From a virus, in the IMG/VR virus record IMGVR_UViG_3300030430_002967, positions 1-21,517 of that record: a stretch of DNA of 21,517 nucleotides. One strand, written 5' to 3'. Shown piece after piece: positions 2,263 to 12,694 of this stretch. The number at the start of each line of letters is the position of its first letter. Positions within the stretch are counted from its first letter, which is position 1. The notes beneath the pieces were generated by a model. The model saw only the letters and a program-made list of their open reading frames with translations. It was not told where the DNA came from and made no database searches. Made by a program: the position numbers and the translations under genes.

Positions 2263-4131
2263 TTACTTTACTTCACAGGCACCACCAGCACAAGCCAACT
2301 CGCCTGAAAGGTCTGTGTTGTCCTCTATCTCAACAACCTTGGTCAAGTCAATATCAGACAAGGTTTCTAGCATAGCCTCATAAGTTTCTTTTGAGCAATC
2401 TTCAAAAGGTGCTTGCTTATAAGTCCCTCCGTCGTATGGCAAGACAGACAGACCGTTGTATACCTCTCGATTCTCCCACATCCACTCGCCGACATCAGTC
2501 CACTCATCCTCTTTGATTGAGATAGTTGCTGATACATTGTGTGTATTCTGACCATTTCTTGTTCCCGGCTTAACCCACTCGCTACTAATCTTGGAGACTC
2601 GCTTAAGCAACTGAAGCGCACTCTCTGTTCGCATGATTGCTCCCTCTGGTGCCTTTTGTGGCACAGAGATCACTGCCGTATCATGCGGTCTAAAATACTC
2701 ATCCTCAACCATGTCTGGATGGTAAAGGGATAGATAGGTATAGATTGCTTCATTCTTGCCCACACGAAGACGACGAATGTAATAGTCGTTGTGCCAAGCA
2801 TGGATTCCGCTGGATGTTCCAACCGTCAGAGATGTTGTCCCTGCTGGCTTGACCGTTGTGCATCGTGCTGCCGATTTGATTCCAAGCAACTTGGCAACTC
2901 TTTCGTTTTCTATCTTCACCACTTGTGCGGCCTCAGTTGTATCTAAGCCAAGTATTTTTCCGGAGGCAATCCCAGTCATGCTGACACCAATAAGGGCTTC
3001 TTTTTCTGTGGTTCTACGCCATATATCACGCAAGTAATGAAAGTCGGTGTAGCCTGCTTGTAGTGTGCCGATCAGTGCAGCCGCTTTCACACGACTGTTT
3101 AGTTCCCCCTGACTCTCAACATCGCTTACATTTACCTCCGTTAAGTTGCAGAACTGATAAGGTCGTAGCGCAATTTCACAACAGGGGTTGGTTCCCCAGT
3201 CTTTATCATTAGAAAAATAAAATCCCGGCTCTCCACTGCCTGATTCTTTTACTCTTTCCCAAAGATCTTGGAAGTATTCTTTAGTAATACGGTGGCGAAG
3301 GAGCACAACAGAGTTGTTTGCTCTACCTCGCTGGGGGGCTGTCTCCCACCAGTTGCCTGTCTTGGCAGCAATCATTTCGTTATCATCAGCAGAAAAGAGA
3401 GATATAAGGGCAGCACGACGGATACCACCGGCAAGAACTGCGTCGGCAATGTGACAGATCATATCGTGGGCTTCAATTGTAGTAAGTTTGTCTCCGTTTT
3501 CTTTGGCTTCAAACATACCATGGAGTTTCACCAAACATTCTTTGAGAGGCTGGGGTCCCGGCGCTTTTCCACCAGAGGTGACGAGGCGAGCGCCTTTTGG
3601 GCGGATATCTGAATAATCAAATCGCAGCCTAGATCCACCTTTAAAATATGATTGAACTAGCGCCTTGACTGCATCTGCCCAGCCCTCGATGGAATCATTA
3701 ATCAAAAAACGACGGGTTCTTTTTGATGTGGGCTTTTGTATTTCTGGTAGTTTTTCTACGTGATGCTGTTGCACACTGTAACCCACTCCTGTCCCTCCGA
3801 GGAGGAGGAACATGACTTCGCTAAACACACGCCAGTCATCAATTGGGGCAAAGGCACAATTGTATATGCGGTTAGGCGCTACTTCAATTGGCTTGCCTCC
3901 AAACTGCATTGATCGCATAGAAGGGAGCACCTTTTTTTGATATACCATTTCATAGGCAGACTCAATCTCTTCCGATAGTTCTGGGTACTTCTTCTGATGC
4001 ATTGCTTTGTTTCTATCAACAATCTCGCTCCATGTTTCTCGCCTCTCTTTTTCTGGCAAGTAACGAGCATATTTCATGTGGACTGTGATGTCCGACAAGA
4101 TGTCTCTTGCTACTTTATGTTTATCTGTCAT
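2263..4131 (-). CDS. Adenosylcobalamin-dependent (class II) ribonucleotide reductase, compact
   Basis: This 622-residue enzyme reduces ribonucleotides to deoxyribonucleotides with coenzyme B12 as radical source. Key residues keep the spacing of monomeric Lactobacillus RTPR: C92 in IYNCAF and C328 in FCNL as the reducible pair, thiyl C317 and E319 in NPCCEIAL (11 residues from C317 to C328, as between C408 and C419 in RTPR), the loop VKPAGTTSLTVGTSSGIH, and a C-terminal redox pair C614/C619 in CAGGAC (spacing 5, as C731/C736). RTPR is about 739 residues; most of the difference lies between C92 and C317, where RTPR has an insertion carrying its allosteric site. The ATG at 4131 has AGAGG upstream. 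No cobalamin riboswitch fits in the 12-base gap after helicase. Confidence 0.9.
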   Translation of the reverse strand: MTDKHKVARDILSDITVHMKYARYLPEKERRETWSEIVDRNKAMHQKKYPELSEEIESAYEMVYQKKVLPSMRSMQFGGKPIEVAPNRIYNCAFAPIDDWRVFSEVMFLLLGGTGVGYSVQQHHVEKLPEIQKPTSKRTRRFLINDSIEGWADAVKALVQSYFKGGSRLRFDYSDIRPKGARLVTSGGKAPGPQPLKECLVKLHGMFEAKENGDKLTTIEAHDMICHIADAVLAGGIRRAALISLFSADDNEMIAAKTGNWWETAPQRGRANNSVVLLRHRITKEYFQDLWERVKESGSGEPGFYFSNDKDWGTNPCCEIALRPYQFCNLTEVNVSDVESQGELNSRVKAAALIGTLQAGYTDFHYLRDIWRRTTEKEALIGVSMTGIASGKILGLDTTEAAQVVKIENERVAKLLGIKSAARCTTVKPAGTTSLTVGTSSGIHAWHNDYYIRRLRVGKNEAIYTYLSLYHPDMVEDEYFRPHDTAVISVPQKAPEGAIMRTESALQLLKRVSKISSEWVKPGTRNGQNTHNVSATISIKEDEWTDVGEWMWENREVYNGLSVLPYDGGTYKQAPFEDCSKETYEAMLETLSDIDLTKVVEIEDNTDLSGELACAGGACEVK

Positions 4132-4143
4132 TCCTTTTCCTCT

Positions 4144-5499
4144 CTATTTTTTAAATTCTTTATAAACTTGATTAATTTTTTCTTGTTGTTTTTTTGCGTC
4201 TGGCTTTTCTGATTCCTCTAGTTCGCTCTCAAGCACTTCTAACTTAATATTAGATGTGTCCATTTTGATTGGATAAGGCACACCATCTTTGCCATTTCTA
4301 TTCTTAGCAACAAAAATCTTACCTCTGTTCTTTGCTTTGTCTGTAATTGTCCTTGACAAGGAGAAAATAAAATCAGCCACGAAACACTTTCCAAAGGACT
4401 CGGATATAGAATCCATGGTGATCAATTCAGCATTAAGACCTGAACGATTGGTTTGAGAAGCCGTCCAAAGTGGACACTCGTAAACCTGAGCAATTGCTCT
4501 CAACTCCTCATAGATTGACTCCAGATCATGTCGCTTTTCGCTACCCCGAGGAGCAGCCAGCGGCTTAAGCAAGTCTCCGTAGTCAACGATAATCATATCA
4601 ATAGGTATGCCCTGCTGCTTTAATTTATCCAAGTGAGCCCGAATAGTATTTGTGTTTGCAGACTTTGTTGGATACTCTTTAATTATGACATTACCTTCTA
4701 TATCTTTCACTTTTTCGTAAATTTGTTCCTTCAAAGAAAACAAATCCTTTAAATTTACACCAGTTAGACAACTATCATATCTTTGCCCAATGGTCGTATG
4801 TGAGAGTTCTAAGGTATAATGCACGATATTTAAGCCTGCTTTTACTGCTTGTGCTCCCAAATGCACAAGCACCATAGACTTTCCAGCGCCAGTTGGAGCG
4901 ATTACGACACCTAACTCTCCACTTCCAAGACCGCCCTTGCAGATATCGTCTATCTTTTCCCACCCAGTTGTAACTGGGTTGCGAGCCTTTAATGTGTATC
5001 TTTCTTCAAAATCTTTCTTATAGTCATAGCCATGATCGCTGTCAGCACCCAACTTAATTGCATCGTTGATTACATTACTGATCTCGTCAAAAGACGAGTT
5101 ATTCAGCAACTTAACTGACTTCATCATTGCCTCTTTTAGTTTCTGCTTCTTGCAAAAATCTAGTGAAGTCTCCTTGATGTAGTCACTGTCACGCAGCATT
5201 TCAACATCTGTAATAGATCTTTTAAAGTAATCCACAACCTGTTCTTTTACTGCCTCGTCTTCCGGTGAAACTTCTGATTTGATTATGGAGCCAAGGACTT
5301 TAAGAGACGGGTGCGTCGTGTACTTGCTTTTGTATTCATAAATCTTAGAGGTAAGCACCTGAAGGTATTTCAATTCCAAGAAAGATACATCTAGCACTTC
5401 GCCAATCTGGTCACAGAAAGGTCTTTCAGTCATAATCAAATAGACTAGTTTCTCTTGAAAATCTTTCCCGTAGTTTGAAAAACTTGCTTGTTCTGTCAT
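4144..5499 (-). CDS. Replicative DNA helicase, DnaB/gp41-like
   Basis: This 451-residue protein is a hexameric 5'-3' helicase of the RecA-like DnaB family. The N-terminal 160 residues are helical, as in the DnaB/gp41 N domain. The ATPase domain starts at TTGWEKIDDICKGGLGSGEL, with Walker A APTGAGKS (201-208, K207), a catalytic Glu region VHYTLELS, Walker B MIIVDYGDLL (D306) and motif H3/H4 TASQTNRSG (347-354). The length is near T4 gp41 (475). The ATG at 5499 overlaps the membrane-protein stop. No primase domain is attached, and no primase was seen in the window. It would work with the family A polymerase and the gp32-like protein at the fork. Confidence 0.88.
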   Translation of the reverse strand: MTEQASFSNYGKDFQEKLVYLIMTERPFCDQIGEVLDVSFLELKYLQVLTSKIYEYKSKYTTHPSLKVLGSIIKSEVSPEDEAVKEQVVDYFKRSITDVEMLRDSDYIKETSLDFCKKQKLKEAMMKSVKLLNNSSFDEISNVINDAIKLGADSDHGYDYKKDFEERYTLKARNPVTTGWEKIDDICKGGLGSGELGVVIAPTGAGKSMVLVHLGAQAVKAGLNIVHYTLELSHTTIGQRYDSCLTGVNLKDLFSLKEQIYEKVKDIEGNVIIKEYPTKSANTNTIRAHLDKLKQQGIPIDMIIVDYGDLLKPLAAPRGSEKRHDLESIYEELRAIAQVYECPLWTASQTNRSGLNAELITMDSISESFGKCFVADFIFSLSRTITDKAKNRGKIFVAKNRNGKDGVPYPIKMDTSNIKLEVLESELEESEKPDAKKQQEKINQVYKEFKK

Positions 5500-5769: not shown

Positions 5770-6735
5770 TTATCCTCCCTTGCTTTCCACCACCATTCTC
5801 CTAAATAGTGCGAATAAATCTGCCATATCGTATGCGCCGAAGCCATCAACCATCATCATGGTCTGCACACCTGTCTTGTTAAACATTAACTTTTGCTCTT
5901 TTAATATTGACCTTATATGCTGTGCGCTTCTTGCAGAGATGTTTGGCACATATAGTTGCATCATTTTATAATTCTTTTCAATCAGTTGTCTTTTTTCTAC
6001 AACATTTTTAAAGACCTTGAGTTTACTATCGACTCCCTCTGCGAAGTCGACCAGTTCTTGTATTGTGTATGGTTTTTCCTCAGAAAGAAAAGGAAATCGC
6101 TTAGATACGGTCGGCAAACCTGCTCCGCCGATGCCGGGGAGGTTGTCACTCTTATCCCCTGCAATTGCTCTAGCAAGTGCAAAATTTGTTGGGTGTATCT
6201 CATACTGCTCCAAGATCCTTTTCTTATTTAGAATTTCTTTTTGGATTGGTCTGTATAGGATTGTTGAGTCATCACACAACTGAATGAAGTCCTTATCTGA
6301 ACTCAGGATAATCTTGTGATATTCAGACAAGGCTTGAGACTGGCTTGCCAAAGCAATAATATCATCGGCCTCTACATTGTCAACATAAGACTGGAGGATT
6401 GGCATCTCATTTAGATACTCAATCAATCTTTCCTGCTGCCAGTTCTTGTTATCTTCTTGCTGTCCAGCAGTCATATTGTGGATGCCACGATTAAGTCTCA
6501 CCGGTTTTCTGCCAGCCTTATAGTTCTTATCAATGCTCTTGCGCTTTTGCGAGCCGCCATCCCATGCCACAAAAATTAGGTCTGGGTTGACAGTTCTGCA
6601 AACAGACTGTAGTGATTTTAAGAAACCTTTCGTTCCGCCGATTGGCTGACCATTCGTAGAGAGACTGGGGTCTACAATGTAGTTTCTCATAAAAAGATTT
6701 AATGCGTCAATAAGTAATACTCTTCTTTTAGTCAT
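5770..6735 (-). CDS. 5'-3' exonuclease / RNase H, FEN superfamily
   Basis: This 321-residue nuclease would remove RNA primers and flaps from lagging strands, like T4 RNase H or the exonuclease domain of Pol I. Acidic metal-binding motifs appear in order: LLIDALNLF (D10), FVAWDGG (D59), VEADDII (E122, D124, D125), SSDKDF (D147, D149) and a helix-hairpin-helix region at AGDKSDNLPGIGGAG (D194, D197). The ATG at 6735 is preferred to an upstream TTG at 6741 because it gives the ATGACTAA coupling to the preceding gene and better spacing from GAG. It supplies the activity that the short family A polymerase lacks. Confidence 0.88.
   Translation of the reverse strand: MTKRRVLLIDALNLFMRNYIVDPSLSTNGQPIGGTKGFLKSLQSVCRTVNPDLIFVAWDGGSQKRKSIDKNYKAGRKPVRLNRGIHNMTAGQQEDNKNWQQERLIEYLNEMPILQSYVDNVEADDIIALASQSQALSEYHKIILSSDKDFIQLCDDSTILYRPIQKEILNKKRILEQYEIHPTNFALARAIAGDKSDNLPGIGGAGLPTVSKRFPFLSEEKPYTIQELVDFAEGVDSKLKVFKNVVEKRQLIEKNYKMMQLYVPNISARSAQHIRSILKEQKLMFNKTGVQTMMMVDGFGAYDMADLFALFRRMVVESKGG
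5802..5809 (-). promoter_or_regulatory. ACTATTTA motif at the end of the exonuclease gene (weak candidate)
   Basis: The octamer lies inside the last codons of the exonuclease gene and 36 nt before the probable TTG start at 5765. The spacing matches the other sites, but being inside coding sequence it may be chance. A copy within the tape measure gene at 16572-16579 shows that chance copies occur. Confidence 0.25.
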
Positions 6736-6901
6736 CCTCAAACTCGATGTTAAGTTCTCTTATAATTTGCTCTAGTTCTTCTTCAAGTTTTACTTTATCT
6801 TCTTCAGAATTATAATCTTCATTCTCTAACGCAGAAATAAAATAAAATGCCTCTTCAATTAGTTCTTTACGTTGATTAAGAATACCTTTTAAATTTTCCA
6901 T
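6728..6901 (-). CDS. Hypothetical 57-residue acidic helical protein
   Basis: This gene begins MENLKGILNQRKELIEEAF and ends with REL, NIEFEDD. It is a short acidic helical hairpin or coiled coil with no Cys. The ATG at 6901 has GAGGAG 7 nt upstream. Its last 8 bases overlap the exonuclease start (ATGACTAA), which implies translational coupling. Function unknown; an accessory factor of the exonuclease or a small regulator is possible. Confidence 0.7.
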   Translation of the reverse strand: MENLKGILNQRKELIEEAFYFISALENEDYNSEEDKVKLEEELEQIIRELNIEFEDD

Positions 6902-7197: not shown

Positions 7198-7479
7198 TTA
7201 GTGATGGTGGAAGTATTTTTTCTTCTTATATTTCTTTTTGAAATACTTTTTCTTGTACTTCTTTTTGTAGTGCGTATGCCCTTTGTATTTATAGGGATGA
7301 CTATGGTATTGATTACTGTGAGTGTGCCAGTAATGGTCATAGTATTCATAAACTACGTAATGCGAAGGATATACAATGTAGTATTGCTTATACTCTTGAT
7401 GAGGGTTGTGGGTGGAGTGAGCAAAAGCACATCCTGACAGGAGTGCTAGAAATAAAGTTAAGGTAATAATTCTTTTCAT
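7198..7479 (-). CDS. His/Tyr/Lys-rich small lipoprotein
   Basis: This is a 93-residue protein with a lipoprotein signal: MKRIITLTLFLALLSGC, where LSGC is a lipobox and C17 the expected lipidated residue. The mature part is low complexity: HSTHNPH and repeated H/Y units, then a Lys/Tyr/Phe segment (KKKYKKKYFKKKYKKKKYF) and a terminal HHH. Such a chain could bind divalent metals or acidic surface polymers; both are guesses. Phage lipoproteins are known to block receptors or superinfecting phage (T5 Llp for example), which is another option. The ATG at 7479 has GGAGG 5 nt upstream. It lies between the recombinase and a promoter. Confidence 0.7.
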   Translation of the reverse strand: MKRIITLTLFLALLSGCAFAHSTHNPHQEYKQYYIVYPSHYVVYEYYDHYWHTHSNQYHSHPYKYKGHTHYKKKYKKKYFKKKYKKKKYFHHH

Positions 7480-7519: not shown

Positions 7520-8620
7520 TTATTCACCAGTTTCCTCATAAAAGTCTTCTGCTTTGCCCAATCGTTGATCAAACTTCTGGATGACTTCCTCGTCCATAAT
7601 GTCATAGACTCGCTGCTTGAATGCAGGGTCAGCCATCTTCTGTTCCCACTTGGAAGGTTGGAACTTTTCTACTTTACCATCAGCCATTTCCATGGAATAC
7701 CAAGCACCTGAAGAACTCATGTACTTTGAGCTCTTGACTGCCTCAAACAAACTCTGGTCATCCTGAACGCCAATGTTGTCAGTTCCCCATAAGATCTTGA
7801 AGTTGCATTGCCGACCTTGTGTTCCAAACCTGCTCTTCTCCAACTTGACCTTAACCTCAGAGCCGATTCGGAAACCACTTTCATCTGTGATGTAAGCAGC
7901 CTTAGCCTTGCGACCCGTCAGCCAGATACGAAGAGAGTAAGCATAAATCATAGCCTTACCACCGGGAGTGACATACGGAGTGGTCAAAGCCTCTGCGGGT
8001 CGGTTGGTGATATTAGTCTTCAACTGATTTAGAACCAAAAAGGTAGACTGGCTGTTGGCAATTGGTACAGTCAACTTGGACATACCCTTAGCCAAGATTC
8101 TTGCTTTTACTGCCATGGAGGATTGTGGATTAAAGTCTCCTTCCACGTCGGAAATAGCAGGCGTAAGAGCAAGAGAATCCCAGATAAAAAGCATCCGATT
8201 TTCATTATTAGCCAAAAGGTCTTCGATAGTTTCGAGTACAAACTCAACAGACTGAGCCTGAACATAAAGTAGAGTGTCGACATCGCATCCTGCCCTTTCC
8301 AAGAACGCAGGGTCAATGGCAGACTCAGAGTCGAAATAGACAACATCAATTCCTTTTTTCTGTGCATTTGCTGCGACTTGTGCCGCCAAGAACGATTTGC
8401 CTGTTGCTTCAAGACCTGCGATCTCCGTTACTTTGCCGACTGGAATGCCAGCCAATTTGCCTTTGCAAACAATAGAGTCTAGCCATCTAGACCCTGTTGG
8501 AATCCAGTCATTAACCTCTGTTGGGTTTTCCTCATTTAAATTGTGTGCTACGGTCATGCCAGCCCTTTTATTAATGAGCTTTCGCATATCTGCCATAGAC
8601 AACTTACCGGCTTTTGCCAT
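7520..8620 (-). CDS. uvsX: Recombinase, UvsX/RecA family
   Basis: This 366-residue protein is a RecA-fold strand-exchange ATPase. Walker A is GLEATGKS (69-76), a catalytic Glu lies in VVYFDSES (E99), Walker B is MLFIWDS (143-149, D148) and the motif-III/Gln switch is LVLNQLK (195-201, Q199). The length is close to T4 UvsX (391) and E. coli RecA (353). It lacks the C-terminal features of RecA that I would recognise, so the UvsX name is by phage context with gp32-like, gp41-like and FEN genes around it. The ATG at 8620 has AAGGAG upstream. It would drive recombination-dependent replication and repair. Confidence 0.88.
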   Translation of the reverse strand: MAKAGKLSMADMRKLINKRAGMTVAHNLNEENPTEVNDWIPTGSRWLDSIVCKGKLAGIPVGKVTEIAGLEATGKSFLAAQVAANAQKKGIDVVYFDSESAIDPAFLERAGCDVDTLLYVQAQSVEFVLETIEDLLANNENRMLFIWDSLALTPAISDVEGDFNPQSSMAVKARILAKGMSKLTVPIANSQSTFLVLNQLKTNITNRPAEALTTPYVTPGGKAMIYAYSLRIWLTGRKAKAAYITDESGFRIGSEVKVKLEKSRFGTQGRQCNFKILWGTDNIGVQDDQSLFEAVKSSKYMSSSGAWYSMEMADGKVEKFQPSKWEQKMADPAFKQRVYDIMDEEVIQKFDQRLGKAEDFYEETGE

Positions 8621-8633
8621 TATATCTCCTTAC

Positions 8634-8660
8634 AAAAAAGTAGGGGGGCTTGCGCCCCCC
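8634..8660 (-). terminator. Intrinsic terminator with GNRA loop between ssDNA-binding protein and recombinase
   Basis: On the minus strand GGGGGGC, loop GCAA, and GCCCCCC form a 7-bp all-GC stem with a GNRA tetraloop, followed by TAC and six T. It lies between the stop at 8666 and the next ribosome-binding site. No promoter is visible after it, so recombinase expression depends on read-through. Confidence 0.9.
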
Positions 8661-8665
8661 ATTGG

Positions 8666-9406
8666 TTAGAGCAACTCGTTAAGAGCCGCCTGAACATCAT
8701 TGGACGGGGCAGTGTACTTGCTAGTTTCAGCCGAGTTTGCTTCGGCATCCAAGTCAGAGTTCATTGCCTCATCTAAGATTCCAGCAACTTCTTCGCTGGT
8801 TTTGCGCTCAAAAAGAGTGTCAAAATCAGGGACATTGCTGATCAACTCTTGACAATCTGCATCTTCATCTTCGCAAAGAGGAGACGACTTACGGCGGGGT
8901 GTCAAAGAGGTTTTGGGATAGAGCATGCCCGGATCTTTGGCATACTTCAGAACAAGGTCTACACCTTCATCCGCATCAGTAATATCACCAAAGTCTGGAT
9001 TGAGCACAAGGCTCAGGAGTTCTTGGTATACAGTCTTGCTGTAGCCCCATACTCGCACCCCTTCTTTCTCTTCTCCACGGACAATCACCGGAGAGAAGAA
9101 TCGTTGACGAGCAAACAACTTCTTTGCCATGTTAATGCTTTCAGTGTCTCCCTGATTGAAGAGTTTAGTTGCAAACTCACACACGGGGCAATCATCACCA
9201 AAATTGCGCTTCGGGCAAAGGAAGCCATTTTGCTTACCAACATTATAATGGAAGTGAAACTCCTTAAATGGATCTCCATCCTCCGATGGCAGAATACGAA
9301 CCGTATGTTCGCCCTCTGTCAATTTCCAAAAATCAGACTTACCACCCTTTCCGTTGTTTTGAGCAGCAGCCAGTTTTGCTTTCATTTTCTTAAGATCAAT
9401 TCCCAT
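8666..9406 (-). CDS. Single-stranded DNA-binding protein, T4 gp32-like
   Basis: This 246-residue protein coats ssDNA during replication and recombination. It has the gp32 plan: a basic N terminus (DLKKMKAKL), an OB-fold core starting at FWKLTEGEHTVRILP, a zinc site made by H51 (or H53), C64, C73 and C76 with spacing almost the same as in T4 gp32, and an acidic C-terminal tail (DSD, EDEDAD and later Asp/Glu) that usually contacts polymerase, helicase loader and recombinase. T4 gp32 is about 301 residues, so this one is shorter. The ATG at 9406 has AAGGAG upstream. A strong sigma70-like promoter precedes it and an intrinsic terminator follows it, so it can be made in excess of the recombinase downstream. 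Confidence 0.88.
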   Translation of the reverse strand: MGIDLKKMKAKLAAAQNNGKGGKSDFWKLTEGEHTVRILPSEDGDPFKEFHFHYNVGKQNGFLCPKRNFGDDCPVCEFATKLFNQGDTESINMAKKLFARQRFFSPVIVRGEEKEGVRVWGYSKTVYQELLSLVLNPDFGDITDADEGVDLVLKYAKDPGMLYPKTSLTPRRKSSPLCEDEDADCQELISNVPDFDTLFERKTSEEVAGILDEAMNSDLDAEANSAETSKYTAPSNDVQAALNELL

Positions 9407-9435: not shown

Positions 9436-9464
9436 ATTCTATAGCACTGTTTTTGGTTTGTCAA
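9436..9464 (-). promoter_or_regulatory. Consensus-like sigma70 promoter for the ssDNA-binding protein
   Basis: On the minus strand a perfect -35 TTGACA (9459-9464) is followed after exactly 17 bases by TAGAAT (9436-9441). It lies in the 70-base gap before the ATG at 9406. This is the best host-type promoter in the window and fits early expression of replication genes. Confidence 0.8.
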
Positions 9465-9476
9465 CACTTTTTTTTA

Positions 9477-10319
9477 TTATTGTACCTGATTACTTCTTGC
9501 GACGAAATAAGCGTATTTCTGCTCGTAATTTGTGGGAAAGACGCCATAAGATACATTTACATCTTCCATTTGTGGTTTTTCTAAGATTTGTTCTTTTATA
9601 TTATTCAAAAGTTTCTTGTCAGTTTTTAACTCCTCTTCAGGGATTGCATAGTAATATGACTTCTCTTTTAGACTATCTAGGTCAAAAAACGGGTTTTCCT
9701 CCCCTGTGTCGGGGTTTAGAATGCCAAAGGTTGCAATTCTGGAGGTTTCGTTTGGCTTAGAGAAAGTTCCGATGATTTTCTTTTGATTTTTAAACACATT
9801 AATCATATGAATTGTAGAAACCAAAACTTCATTTAAAAAATCATAGTAGCCCATGATTGGTGCTCCGTCAATGATTTTATCCAACAAAGCGTTGTCAGCA
9901 ACATACATGTTTTGAAAAACACCAGATCGGGCGTACTCCTGCAATACCTTAAAGCAGGTTTGCTCTTGTAGCGTTCTCAACTCAGACAACGAATCCATGT
10001 CTGGTCTAATATACAAGATATTGATTTTTGTTTTCTTGTGAAGATATTCCAAGATTCTAAGTGCAGCACCAGAAATAATTGATGCACCAGACAATACAAA
10101 CAGGGCTTCACCTTCAATGTTGTTGAACCTTCTAGACAAATCCGGCACAGCCTCTTCATATTTTTCTGGATGATCGCACTCGTCCAGTTCAATAAACCTA
10201 GAGTTGCCAATGTCCTCTGGCAGTTCCCAGTCAATGGTGTACCCGTTATACTGTGGGTACTGCAAAAACTTATTTACAATGTTGTGCCCTACCGAGCCTA
10301 GTCCTACTATTGTATACAT
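9477..10319 (-). CDS. Divergent tubulin/FtsZ-like protein (candidate)
   Basis: The 280-residue sequence follows the FtsZ layout. YTIVGLGSVGHNIVNKF at the start resembles the FtsZ N-terminal Gly-rich loop. FVLSGASIISGAALRIL (74-90) lies where FtsZ has its GGGTGTG phosphate loop. ILYIRPDMDSL, then LQEQTCFKVLQEYA, then NMYVADNALLDKI parallels the FtsZ segment with TKPFxFEG and IPNDxLL. A helix and a T7-loop-like region follow (IIGTFSKPNETSRI, 182-195), and a beta-rich C-terminal part ends in KYAYFVARS. The G-box is degenerate and the catalytic-loop Asp of FtsZ is not obvious, so nucleotide hydrolysis is doubtful. A Rossmann dinucleotide-binding protein is the main alternative. It overlaps the polymerase gene by 13 bases and precedes the promoter of the ssDNA-binding protein gene. 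Confidence 0.5.
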   Translation of the reverse strand: MYTIVGLGSVGHNIVNKFLQYPQYNGYTIDWELPEDIGNSRFIELDECDHPEKYEEAVPDLSRRFNNIEGEALFVLSGASIISGAALRILEYLHKKTKINILYIRPDMDSLSELRTLQEQTCFKVLQEYARSGVFQNMYVADNALLDKIIDGAPIMGYYDFLNEVLVSTIHMINVFKNQKKIIGTFSKPNETSRIATFGILNPDTGEENPFFDLDSLKEKSYYYAIPEEELKTDKKLLNNIKEQILEKPQMEDVNVSYGVFPTNYEQKYAYFVARSNQVQ

Positions 10320-11497
10320 AATTCTTTCATCTCTCCGAAGTTCTTTCCTGCCGACACATTTACTTTGAATGTTCCAAAGGGTGTGCTTGAGAACTCTTTG
10401 ACCAACATGTTTATCACACTTAGGTCTTGTTTGTCAAGGTCTAAAACGATACTGTCATGAATAATAAATGCGATGTTTGATTTTAAATCTTGCAGTGCCT
10501 CTTTTATCAAGTAAGCCCTGTCCATAATAAGATCACTACATGTGCTTTGGATGATATAGTTTAGTGAGTGATACTCATCGCTTTCTATTTCTCTTTTGTA
10601 ATAGTTTTTTACAGACTTACCATCCCAATATTCATTCATCACCTTCTTTCTGTCATAGTGCTTGTCCAAGGCTTTGTCCTTAGAATTAGGATTGTAAAGC
10701 CATGAAAAGATATTCTTCTTTGCTTGCTCTCTACTAATGCTACCCTCGTACAAATTTCTGATGTTCCAGTCATGGATATCTTCATCAGGCTGTGGCATAC
10801 CAAGCAAGCCTATCAGCACCCTTAGTTCGGCCGCATTGTAGTCTAGTTCAACAAACATATCGTTGTTTGGCTGGAGTACATTACGAAATCTTTTGTCCAT
10901 GGTAAGTATAGGGAATGAATTTCTTTTCGTAGTTAGCCTACCAGTCTTAGTGCCAAAGGGATTGTAGTTAACATAGGGCGATGCTGCCTTGAACCTTTTA
11001 AAAAATTCTCTTGTTCTTGGATTCTCGTAGGATTCTTTAAGGGGCTCTAGGTTTACATTCAATCTTTGATTAGATATTTCTGTGGTGATAGATACGATTT
11101 TCTGCTGTAGTTCGTAGTTGTCTGGTCTTTGGTATGTCTCAAACACATGCTGTGTAATTTTATTCTTTACCTCGCAGAAATCCTTTACAAATTGTTCTGG
11201 CAGGAGGTCAAAGAAGCAGTTTTGGTTTAGGTCAATCTTGGCAATCGTAAAAGACTTGTAGAATGCCTGCATTTTTTTCCAAGCCAAGTCAAATTCTTCT
11301 TGGTGTTGGGGTGGGCAAATTTCTTTTAGGGTCTTGCCTTTGGTGTAGATCTGGGCAAACTCTATGCCTTTATCTTGCAAAAATGACGAATATGACCAAG
11401 TTTTAGTCAAATTGGGTGGAATATGATCGTATACCATCTTACCATTTAGGTAAATGCCGACACAGTATTCTTTATCATCTAATGCTTGAAATAACAA
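10307..11497 (-). CDS. Short family A DNA polymerase (polymerase domain only)
   Basis: The 396-residue protein has the Pol I-type palm and fingers motifs in order: TGRL (185-188), motif A DYNAAELR (219-226, catalytic D219), an O-helix REQAKKNIFSWLY (256-268, with R256, K260, F264 and Y268 at the usual spacing), a Q-helix-like IIQSTCSDL with Q317, and motif C IHDSI (H347, D348), where Pol I has HDE. There is no room for a 3'-5' or 5'-3' exonuclease; a separate FEN nuclease is encoded at 5770-6735. The stretch between O-helix and Q317 is short, so the fingers are reduced. The start appears to be TTG with a weak site, so the N terminus is uncertain. It overlaps the tubulin-like gene by 13 bases. 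T4-like phages usually encode a family B polymerase instead. Confidence 0.85.
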   Translation of the reverse strand: MLFQALDDKEYCVGIYLNGKMVYDHIPPNLTKTWSYSSFLQDKGIEFAQIYTKGKTLKEICPPQHQEEFDLAWKKMQAFYKSFTIAKIDLNQNCFFDLLPEQFVKDFCEVKNKITQHVFETYQRPDNYELQQKIVSITTEISNQRLNVNLEPLKESYENPRTREFFKRFKAASPYVNYNPFGTKTGRLTTKRNSFPILTMDKRFRNVLQPNNDMFVELDYNAAELRVLIGLLGMPQPDEDIHDWNIRNLYEGSISREQAKKNIFSWLYNPNSKDKALDKHYDRKKVMNEYWDGKSVKNYYKREIESDEYHSLNYIIQSTCSDLIMDRAYLIKEALQDLKSNIAFIIHDSIVLDLDKQDLSVINMLVKEFSSTPFGTFKVNVSAGKNFGEMKELCIQ

Positions 11498-11504
11498 ATA
11501 TTAC

Positions 11505-12683
11505 TCAACTGGTTTGAGATTTAATTCTGTCATTAATGTAATCTAAAGTTTGGTCAAAGTCAAGAGAATTGTAGATTTGCTGTATTTTTTGCAACTCTTT
11601 TGTTAATAGAAAATCTGATTGAACTATTCTCATTTCATCCAATTTTAATCTGTAGTATATTTTTAGCCAAAACAAATCATCATAATTATTCTCATATGCG
11701 GCTGTAGTTAGCGACTCTCTTTCAACTAATTTTTGATTTGGCTGCTTGTACGGTGGACACTTTTGATTAAGGAAAGTAGGTATTTCTACCGTATATTCTG
11801 GCGATATTGACAAAAAAGATTTATACATTTGCTGCATGTAAACTTTTAAGTTTTGTATATCATATTTGTAAGTTTTTACAAAAATGTTTTCAAAAACATT
11901 TGACACATTAAATCCATATTTGCTCATGTAGGCAATCATAGCAGGAGAATTTAAATTTGCAACCAATCGCCAAGGAGCATTTTTGTCGACAAGAAATCCG
12001 AATTTTGCAGCGACCAACAGATAAAAATCAAAATTTGGACTTTTGATAAAGTTTTCTAACTTAACCGAATCTAAAGAATGACTGTCGTCTGCTATTTCAA
12101 TACAAAGCCCAGTATTTGTAGGGTTAAAAAATTTCGAACGAACAATGCCGCTCTTTGTTATTGGCATTTTCTTATTCATGTTAGGGTAGAAATCATTAAA
12201 AAACGTCTTTAAAAAATCATCAATATTCTTTACAGGTGACTGACTGTCAGAAGGTAAAAGGGAGCCCACAACATAAACTTGATATAAGTCATTCATTCTG
12301 CTATCATAAAAGTTATGTGGAGACGACCATGCATTATATGCATCCCAGTTTGTTGTCAAAAATTTGTCCGGAATCAACTTGCTAAAAGTCTGCTTTTTAA
12401 GATAATTTCTTAGGTCCTCAAATGCATCGGCTACAAAATTAAAACAAAAAATATTTTCACTTTTACTGCTTTCAATCTGCTTTAGATAATATTCATTGGC
12501 ATGAACAATGTTATCATTTAGATCCAGTCTTCCATATAAAATATTTTTTCCATCATGAAAATCAAAAGATGCAACCTCATCGGGAAACACTTTCGCATAA
12601 GTTTCTCTTATTTTAAAGATATCTTTTGGTCCCGAGTTACTGCTATTTTTTATCGTTATGTCTTGATATTTTTGCTCAATCAT
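11505..12683 (-). CDS. Uncharacterised 392-residue protein in the tail operon
   Basis: I recognise no family. The protein is rich in Asn, Tyr, Phe and Lys, has no signal peptide or membrane helix, and has a conserved-looking centre, PWRLVANLNSPAMIAYMSKYG, given here in pieces as PWRLVANLNS and AMIAYMSKYG. A TTG at 12692 is possible, but the ATG at 12683 is preferred because AGGA lies 9 nt upstream. It starts 12 bases after the hub-like gene and is followed by DNA polymerase 7 bases after its stop, so it marks the switch from tail to replication genes. Its base composition is more AT-rich than the tape measure or recombinase genes. It could be a baseplate or virion protein; that is inferred from position only. 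Confidence 0.6.
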   Translation of the reverse strand: MIEQKYQDITIKNSSNSGPKDIFKIRETYAKVFPDEVASFDFHDGKNILYGRLDLNDNIVHANEYYLKQIESSKSENIFCFNFVADAFEDLRNYLKKQTFSKLIPDKFLTTNWDAYNAWSSPHNFYDSRMNDLYQVYVVGSLLPSDSQSPVKNIDDFLKTFFNDFYPNMNKKMPITKSGIVRSKFFNPTNTGLCIEIADDSHSLDSVKLENFIKSPNFDFYLLVAAKFGFLVDKNAPWRLVANLNSPAMIAYMSKYGFNVSNVFENIFVKTYKYDIQNLKVYMQQMYKSFLSISPEYTVEIPTFLNQKCPPYKQPNQKLVERESLTTAAYENNYDDLFWLKIYYRLKLDEMRIVQSDFLLTKELQKIQQIYNSLDFDQTLDYINDRIKSQTS

Positions 12684-12694
12684 TTTTAACAATC

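Follow-up and report, generated by a model that had tools for sequence, protein, structure and literature searches.

A gene set between the DNA polymerase and single-strand DNA-binding protein genes of a large group of uncultured marine phages encodes what is, according to predicted structures, a new and highly divergent family of the FtsZ/tubulin superfamily, here called family A; the superfamily and phage tubulins are themselves already known. The gene was studied in a 21.5-kb virus record (IMGVR_UViG_3300030430_002967), analysed over its whole length and referred to below as the window, whose T4-type baseplate, tail tube and tail sheath genes indicate a tailed phage with a contractile tail. 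Chances seem about even that the family A protein binds its ligand weakly or statically, lacks tubulin-type GTP hydrolysis and serves phage replication as a static partner or scaffold. The gene and its neighbours are as follows.

9477..10319, minus strand: FtsZ-like gene (family A; FTSZL), 280 aa, ATG start (ORF, AF2 and Foldseek)
10307..11497, minus strand: short family-A DNA polymerase (polA; here a polymerase family, DNA_pol_A), 396 aa (PF00476, E 3e-13)
9436..9464, minus strand: sigma-70-type promoter TTGACA-N17-TAGAAT (11/12 matches), between the FtsZ-like gene and ssb
8666..9406, minus strand: gp32-like single-strand DNA-binding protein (ssb), 246 aa (PF08804, E 1.5e-14; phrog_1192, E 2.1e-31)
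7520..8620, minus strand: RecA/UvsX-like recombinase of the replication cluster (PF00154, E 6.8e-36; synteny)
5770..6741, minus strand: 5'-3' exonuclease of the replication cluster (PF02739, E 1.4e-27; synteny)
4144..5499, minus strand: DnaB-like replicative helicase of the replication cluster (PF03796, E 1.2e-19; synteny)

The reading frame at 9477-10319 had been proposed in an earlier, sequence-only reading of this DNA, and it holds, on the minus strand, which that reading had left unstated; the plus-strand frame of the same interval has stops throughout. The 13-base overlap with the polymerase ORF was likewise confirmed (shared bases 10307-10319), and all the segments singled out at the time are present in the protein, namely VGLGSVGHN (residues 5-13), SGASIISGAA (77-86), IRPDMD (104-109) and NMYVADNALLDKI (137-149). 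Comparison of the window protein with close relatives, where dS is finite, gives a dN/dS of ~0.02-0.05 (about 0.03), and since dN is 0.02-0.06 at dS 0.6-2.4, the protein is under strong purifying selection. This low dN/dS, the encoding of the protein at no fewer than 590 loci and its presence as a single copy per contig in 12 of 12 long contigs (95-194 kb) rule out a chance ORF.

The AlphaFold2 model of the window protein, built on a 34-sequence alignment, has a pLDDT of 90.2 and a pTM of 0.90. When it was compared with the PDB using Foldseek, all top 50 matches were FtsZ or TubZ (best match FtsZ, E 7.5e-14, prob 1.00), with query-normalised TM-scores of 0.67-0.74 against these proteins and both domains matched. 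Among viral models, the best match is a phage protein annotated as FtsZ (E 8.4e-12), followed by other phage tubulin/FtsZ-like models, and Rossmann-fold viral proteins rank much lower (E 2.8e-3, TM 0.41). A second model (pLDDT 93.0), made for L043, a 283-aa protein of a different branch that shares 43% identity with the window protein, retrieved TubZ, FtsZ and CetZ (best E 4.7e-13, prob 1.00), TubZ being its top PDB match. Both models contain a long central helix, equivalent to H7, and a C-terminal domain; helix H8 is not present in either. At the level of the modelled fold, family A is a member of the FtsZ/tubulin superfamily, with a predicted N-terminal GTPase-type domain, H7 and a C-terminal activation domain. 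The FtsZ-like fold, originally assigned by eye, is thus upheld: a Rossmann dehydrogenase does not fit better, since both fold searches return FtsZ/TubZ, which the two predicted structures match far better than any protein of that kind.

Sequence similarity to FtsZ appears real but weak. Profile-profile comparison (hhalign) of family A with 11 FtsZ sequences aligned window residues 3-171 with E. coli FtsZ 14-194 at an E-value of 0.0016 (for one comparison). The score of 32.4 (25.2 on query-anchored columns) exceeds those of 60 block-shuffled profiles (mean 14.9, maximum 20.6). As had been proposed, H7 and the IPND Asn came into register, as did the G1 loop and the G-box position, but the probability assigned to the match is only 15.9%. 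Identity with bacterial FtsZ is 12-15%. A single-sequence Pfam scan of 34 members returned TrkA_N for 12 of them (best E 7.4e-5) and Tubulin for three (best E 0.058). With a weak profile signal and a Pfam scan favouring TrkA_N, homology therefore rests mainly on predicted structure.

Family A is numerous, with at least 590 confirmed relatives in IMG/VR, and absent from the family libraries (Pfam, PHROG, NCBIfam) and open-access literature searched; the window protein gets no meaningful score from any model in these three libraries. No relative was found by tblastn with three different members against 50,697 phage records, and a pattern search of 84,980 prokaryote genomes gave 69 matches, none of which was confirmed as family A. 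Searching the PDB with the family A sequence profile yielded chance matches only, and a scan of viral contigs with E. coli FtsZ patterns, which are too specific, produced no match. The cyanobacterial-host sign psbA was sought in 12 contigs and is absent from them.

Column statistics over 76 family A sequences, read together with the alignment and the models, locate the following elements in the protein.

10281..10304, minus strand: G1 (T1) loop GLGSVGHN, residues 6-13 (column statistics, hhalign)
10065..10088, minus strand: G-box (T4) position GASIISGA, residues 78-85 (hhalign, column statistics)
9924..9941, minus strand: family-specific motif QEYARS, residues 127-132, end of helix H5 (column statistics)
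9891..9893, minus strand: N143 (76/76; aligned with E. coli FtsZ N165 of IPND)
9789..9851, minus strand: helix H7 region, residues 157-177 (AF2, hhalign, column statistics)
9753..9791, minus strand: T7-loop position, residues 177-189, KNQKKIIGTFSKP (AF2 models, column statistics)

Residues G6, G8, G11 and N13 of the G1 loop align with G17, G19, G22 and N24 of E. coli FtsZ, and on H7, Y158 (70/76) aligns with F182 and N163 (76/76) with N186. Positions N165, F182 and N186 of E. coli FtsZ are those which we take to serve guanine recognition, and going by the alignment they appear to be conserved in family A as N143, Y158 and N163. The G-box is two residues shorter than the GMGGGTGTGA of FtsZ, with most of its glycines and threonines replaced (family consensus GxGxISGA); the T4 signature GGGTG(S/T)G is not present in family A, which has GASIISG or GxGxISG instead. 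The stretch after H7 has the consensus FKNSEPVxGTF, and the catalytic T7 motif NxDxxD was not found, there being no conserved acidic residues at this position in the 76 sequences; both T7 acids are invariant in the FtsZ comparison set. The suspicion that the G-box and the catalytic Asp were altered is thereby borne out, whereas the T7-loop-like stretch that had been described is not, there being no conserved acidic pair after H7 and no H8 in either model. Because two defining features of the GTPases, the G-box and the T7 motif, are lacking, the protein is best named an FtsZ/tubulin-fold protein and not a tubulin GTPase. Four other residues are invariant, Q127, R131 and S132 (76/76 sequences) and H171 on H7; going by the topology of FtsZ, these residues, located where H5 ends and in the lower part of H7, would be close to the side that faces T7 and the domain junction. 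An acidic DDQ(D/E)I tail ends 18 of the 76 members.

For tubulin-type GTP catalysis, the adjacent subunit has to supply its T7 acids. As these are not conserved in family A, GTP hydrolysis by the tubulin mechanism is not expected, and the family is, judging from its motifs, probably non-hydrolysing.

The gene keeps the same company wherever it occurs. Across 137 loci (a few contigs being represented twice), polA is the recognised gene directly upstream in all 120 in which the contig reaches that far, and ssb lies downstream in 134 of 134. The order in the window is tail genes, polA, the FtsZ-like gene, ssb, recA, 5'-3' exonuclease, DnaB-like helicase and ribonucleotide reductase. In 55 of the 120 loci polA shares bases with the FtsZ-like gene, in most cases 4 or 13 of them, and in 53 others the two are more than 200 bases apart, most often with an ORF of ~105 aa in between. 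By eye, this insert (YxKLVRDRIPEII...EEVxEFxENPCxEEAADI) resembles MazG-type nucleotide pyrophosphatases, although an NCBIfam scan does not recognise it; it marks one large branch, in which polA and the FtsZ-like gene stand about 300 bp apart, for example in L043, L050 and L028. A sigma-70-type promoter with 10 or more of 12 matches is found between the FtsZ-like gene and ssb in 63 of 134 loci; it points to a bacterial host and suggests that the unit transcribed with polA has the FtsZ-like gene as its last member.

Flavobacterium phage immuto, Microcystis phage Mel-JY01, several IMG/VR contigs and one uncultured phage of 484 kb have related clusters that lack the gene, so that what occupies the polA-ssb slot is clade-specific. 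A split or degenerate homologue in the slot of immuto was considered and rejected, as the two small ORFs found there are without similarity to the family.

Several other features of the window were recorded. A 395-aa protein (11505-12692, minus strand) lies directly upstream of polA throughout the family A loci; it has no Pfam match, no meaningful PHROG match and none in sequenced phages. Between ssb and recA there is a strong terminator-like hairpin (8641-8661, minus strand; GGGGGGCGCAAGCCCCCC) followed by a T run. At 7198-7479 (minus strand) a small, secreted-looking protein with a lipoprotein-like N-terminus carries an extreme His/Lys/Tyr-rich repeat (HYKKKYKKKYFKKKYKKKKYFHHH), and relatives of it occur in some loci (e.g., L005 and L008). 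The ribonucleotide reductase (2263-4131, minus strand) shares 66% identity with its counterpart in Microcystis phage Mel-JY01 and 61-64% with those of Oceanospirillum and Vibrio phages, whereas the helicase is only 38% identical to the nearest phage record, a difference that makes horizontal transfer possible.

Some of these phages encode a second, more canonical FtsZ. One contig (G005, IMGVR_UViG_3300025131_009739) carries, besides family A, a gene for a 364-aa FtsZ (L155:890-1981, minus strand; relatives L158-L237) in which the motifs GVGGGGG, GGGGGTGS and FDSKDL are intact, with matches to PF00091 (E 3.1e-7) and TIGR00065 (E 9.5e-8) that are both below cut-off. This family B (P0004 and its relatives) is characterised by an FDxKD T7 motif and a conserved acidic N-terminal segment, DDFDFV, and has at least 107 relatives in IMG/VR, on viral contigs of up to 281 kb; none was found in sequenced phage isolates. 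Both families are thus found in related marine phages, but only family B has intact GGGGGTGS and FDxKD motifs, and the hhalign score between the two (22.7) is not above its controls (reversed profile 22.0, shuffle maximum 23.4). They occur together in 7 of 28 long contigs (G005, G014, G015, G016, G017, G019 and G028); family B is absent from 11 of 12 long family A contigs and family A from 10 of 16 family B contigs, all counts from contigs that may be incomplete. Hidden family A genes in the family-B-only contigs were sought and rejected, since other genes occupy the polA-ssb slot: small MNEExLRxYIRKML-type proteins (L251, L253 and L254) and, in several of these relatives, a DEDD-like exonuclease (MKHLE...VIDVETTGL).

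How such a protein might act can be pictured as follows. It would be made together with the phage DNA polymerase, would bind, weakly or statically, a guanine nucleotide or a ligand related to it, without splitting GTP by the tubulin mechanism, and would hold or position the polymerase and SSB-coated replication sites in the infected bacterium. A role in organising replication or partitioning, as the sequence-only reading had put forward, is plausible in view of the complete polA/ssb synteny. Loss of the phosphate-gripping and GTP-splitting motifs suggests a probably static partner or scaffold of replication and not a moving filament, and the invariant place beside polymerase and SSB makes this its most likely role. 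Counting against it, sister phages with the same replication cluster lack the FtsZ-like gene.

The same absence (in immuto, Mel-JY01 and the family-B-only contigs) weighs on the closest rival, in which an FtsZ-fold monomer or small oligomer would couple the short polymerase to SSB and DNA as a coupling or processivity factor and would play no part in a cytoskeleton. That the gene adjoins polA and ssb in every locus, often overlapping polA, would suit such an adaptor, Q127, R131, S132 and H171 could form a protein-binding face, and the T7 acids that dynamic filaments need are missing; the conserved guanine-pocket residues, on the other hand, suggest a ligand, and we hold this explanation to be rather unlikely. 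Less probable again is a decoy, in which a catalytically dead relative of FtsZ would join or cap the filaments of the host's FtsZ and block division of the infected cell. In its favour are the place of FtsZ among the nearest solved folds, the lack of catalytic residues and a host that, given the promoter beside the gene, is probably bacterial. Host-takeover genes, however, usually lie in variable early regions, so that a gene found within the core replication cluster in every locus fits this explanation less well, and the sequence resembles that of bacterial FtsZ too little to hint at a protofilament interface having been conserved.

A match to both TubZ and FtsZ in a protein of phage origin would also be expected of a dynamic GTPase filament of the PhuZ/TubZ kind, by which phage DNA would be moved or centred. 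This appears very improbable with a degenerate G-box and without the T7 aspartates on which PhuZ dynamics depend (PMC7950403). The link with PhuZ and nucleus-forming jumbo phages that had been suggested is not supported: the catalytic T7 aspartates are missing, most long contigs are shorter than 200 kb, and a search for the phiKZ shell protein (gp54) in 12 contigs of 95-194 kb gave no match, though without a positive control and in contigs that may be incomplete. As for a Rossmann-type NAD(P)-binding or TrkA_N protein resembling FtsZ in its glycine loop only, the TrkA_N matches of 12 of 34 members raise the idea, and the two fold searches reject it: two independent models have the FtsZ H7 connector and C-terminal domain, the top 50 PDB matches are FtsZ, TubZ or CetZ, and viral Rossmann-fold proteins come far behind. 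Hardly any weight is left to it.

With the static scaffold or partner as the preferred reading, a broader proposition can be put forward tentatively, as possible but less than likely: that a tubulin-superfamily protein has abandoned GTP hydrolysis and turned into a permanent part of the replication module in a large clade of marine myoviruses, apparently not nucleus-formers, some of which have a canonical FtsZ as well. If true, these last would have a two-tubulin system, with one catalytic and one non-catalytic member. Family A would then be a natural, catalytically altered tubulin conserved across great divergence, and it raises the question of whether DNA replication can make use of a tubulin fold that does not hydrolyse GTP.

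Precedents exist for several of these traits. Bacterial FtsZ (PDB 7ojb, 3wgj and 4dxd; E. coli FtsZ) shares with family A the two-domain fold throughout (TM about 0.70-0.74), and the G1 glycines, the IPND Asn and the H7 Phe/Tyr and Asn are in register; family A differs by its shortened or replaced GGGTGTG loop, its missing T7 NxDxxD and H8, and its location in a phage replication cluster. Loss of motifs has been described for the thaumarchaeal Nmar_1262, an FtsZ homologue that lacks both the T7 loop and the GTP motif and did not polymerise in yeast (PMC3684127); the likeness is one of description, and Nmar_1262 is a cellular archaeal gene. Very divergent branches of the superfamily are also known, as with FtsZl2, found through the GGGTG(S/T)G motif, and FtsZl1, which contains it (PMC2875224), but family A is without this motif, and FtsZl1 differs further in its coiled coils and its C-terminal part.

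Also comparable are TubZ (Bacillus cereus 4ei8/4ei7, 2xka) and PhuZ/phiKZ TubZ (PMC3678025), tubulin/FtsZ folds that are likewise carried by mobile elements; the acidic tail of some family A members is loosely like that of PhuZ. Family A departs from them in having no catalytic T7 aspartates or canonical G-box, and its neighbours, compared with those of TubZ partition systems, are the replication genes polA and ssb and, in many loci, the small MazG-like gene. Mutation of the T7 catalytic residues of PhuZ results in non-dynamic filaments and misplaced phage DNA (PMC7950403). In published descriptions, phage tubulins fall into a TubZ partition type and a PhuZ spindle type, and both of these subgroups are GTPases. 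Family A looks like a third group, far more divergent and numerous than the other two, which escapes the family libraries searched, is missing from sequenced isolates and is tied to a DNA-replication cluster of marine phages.
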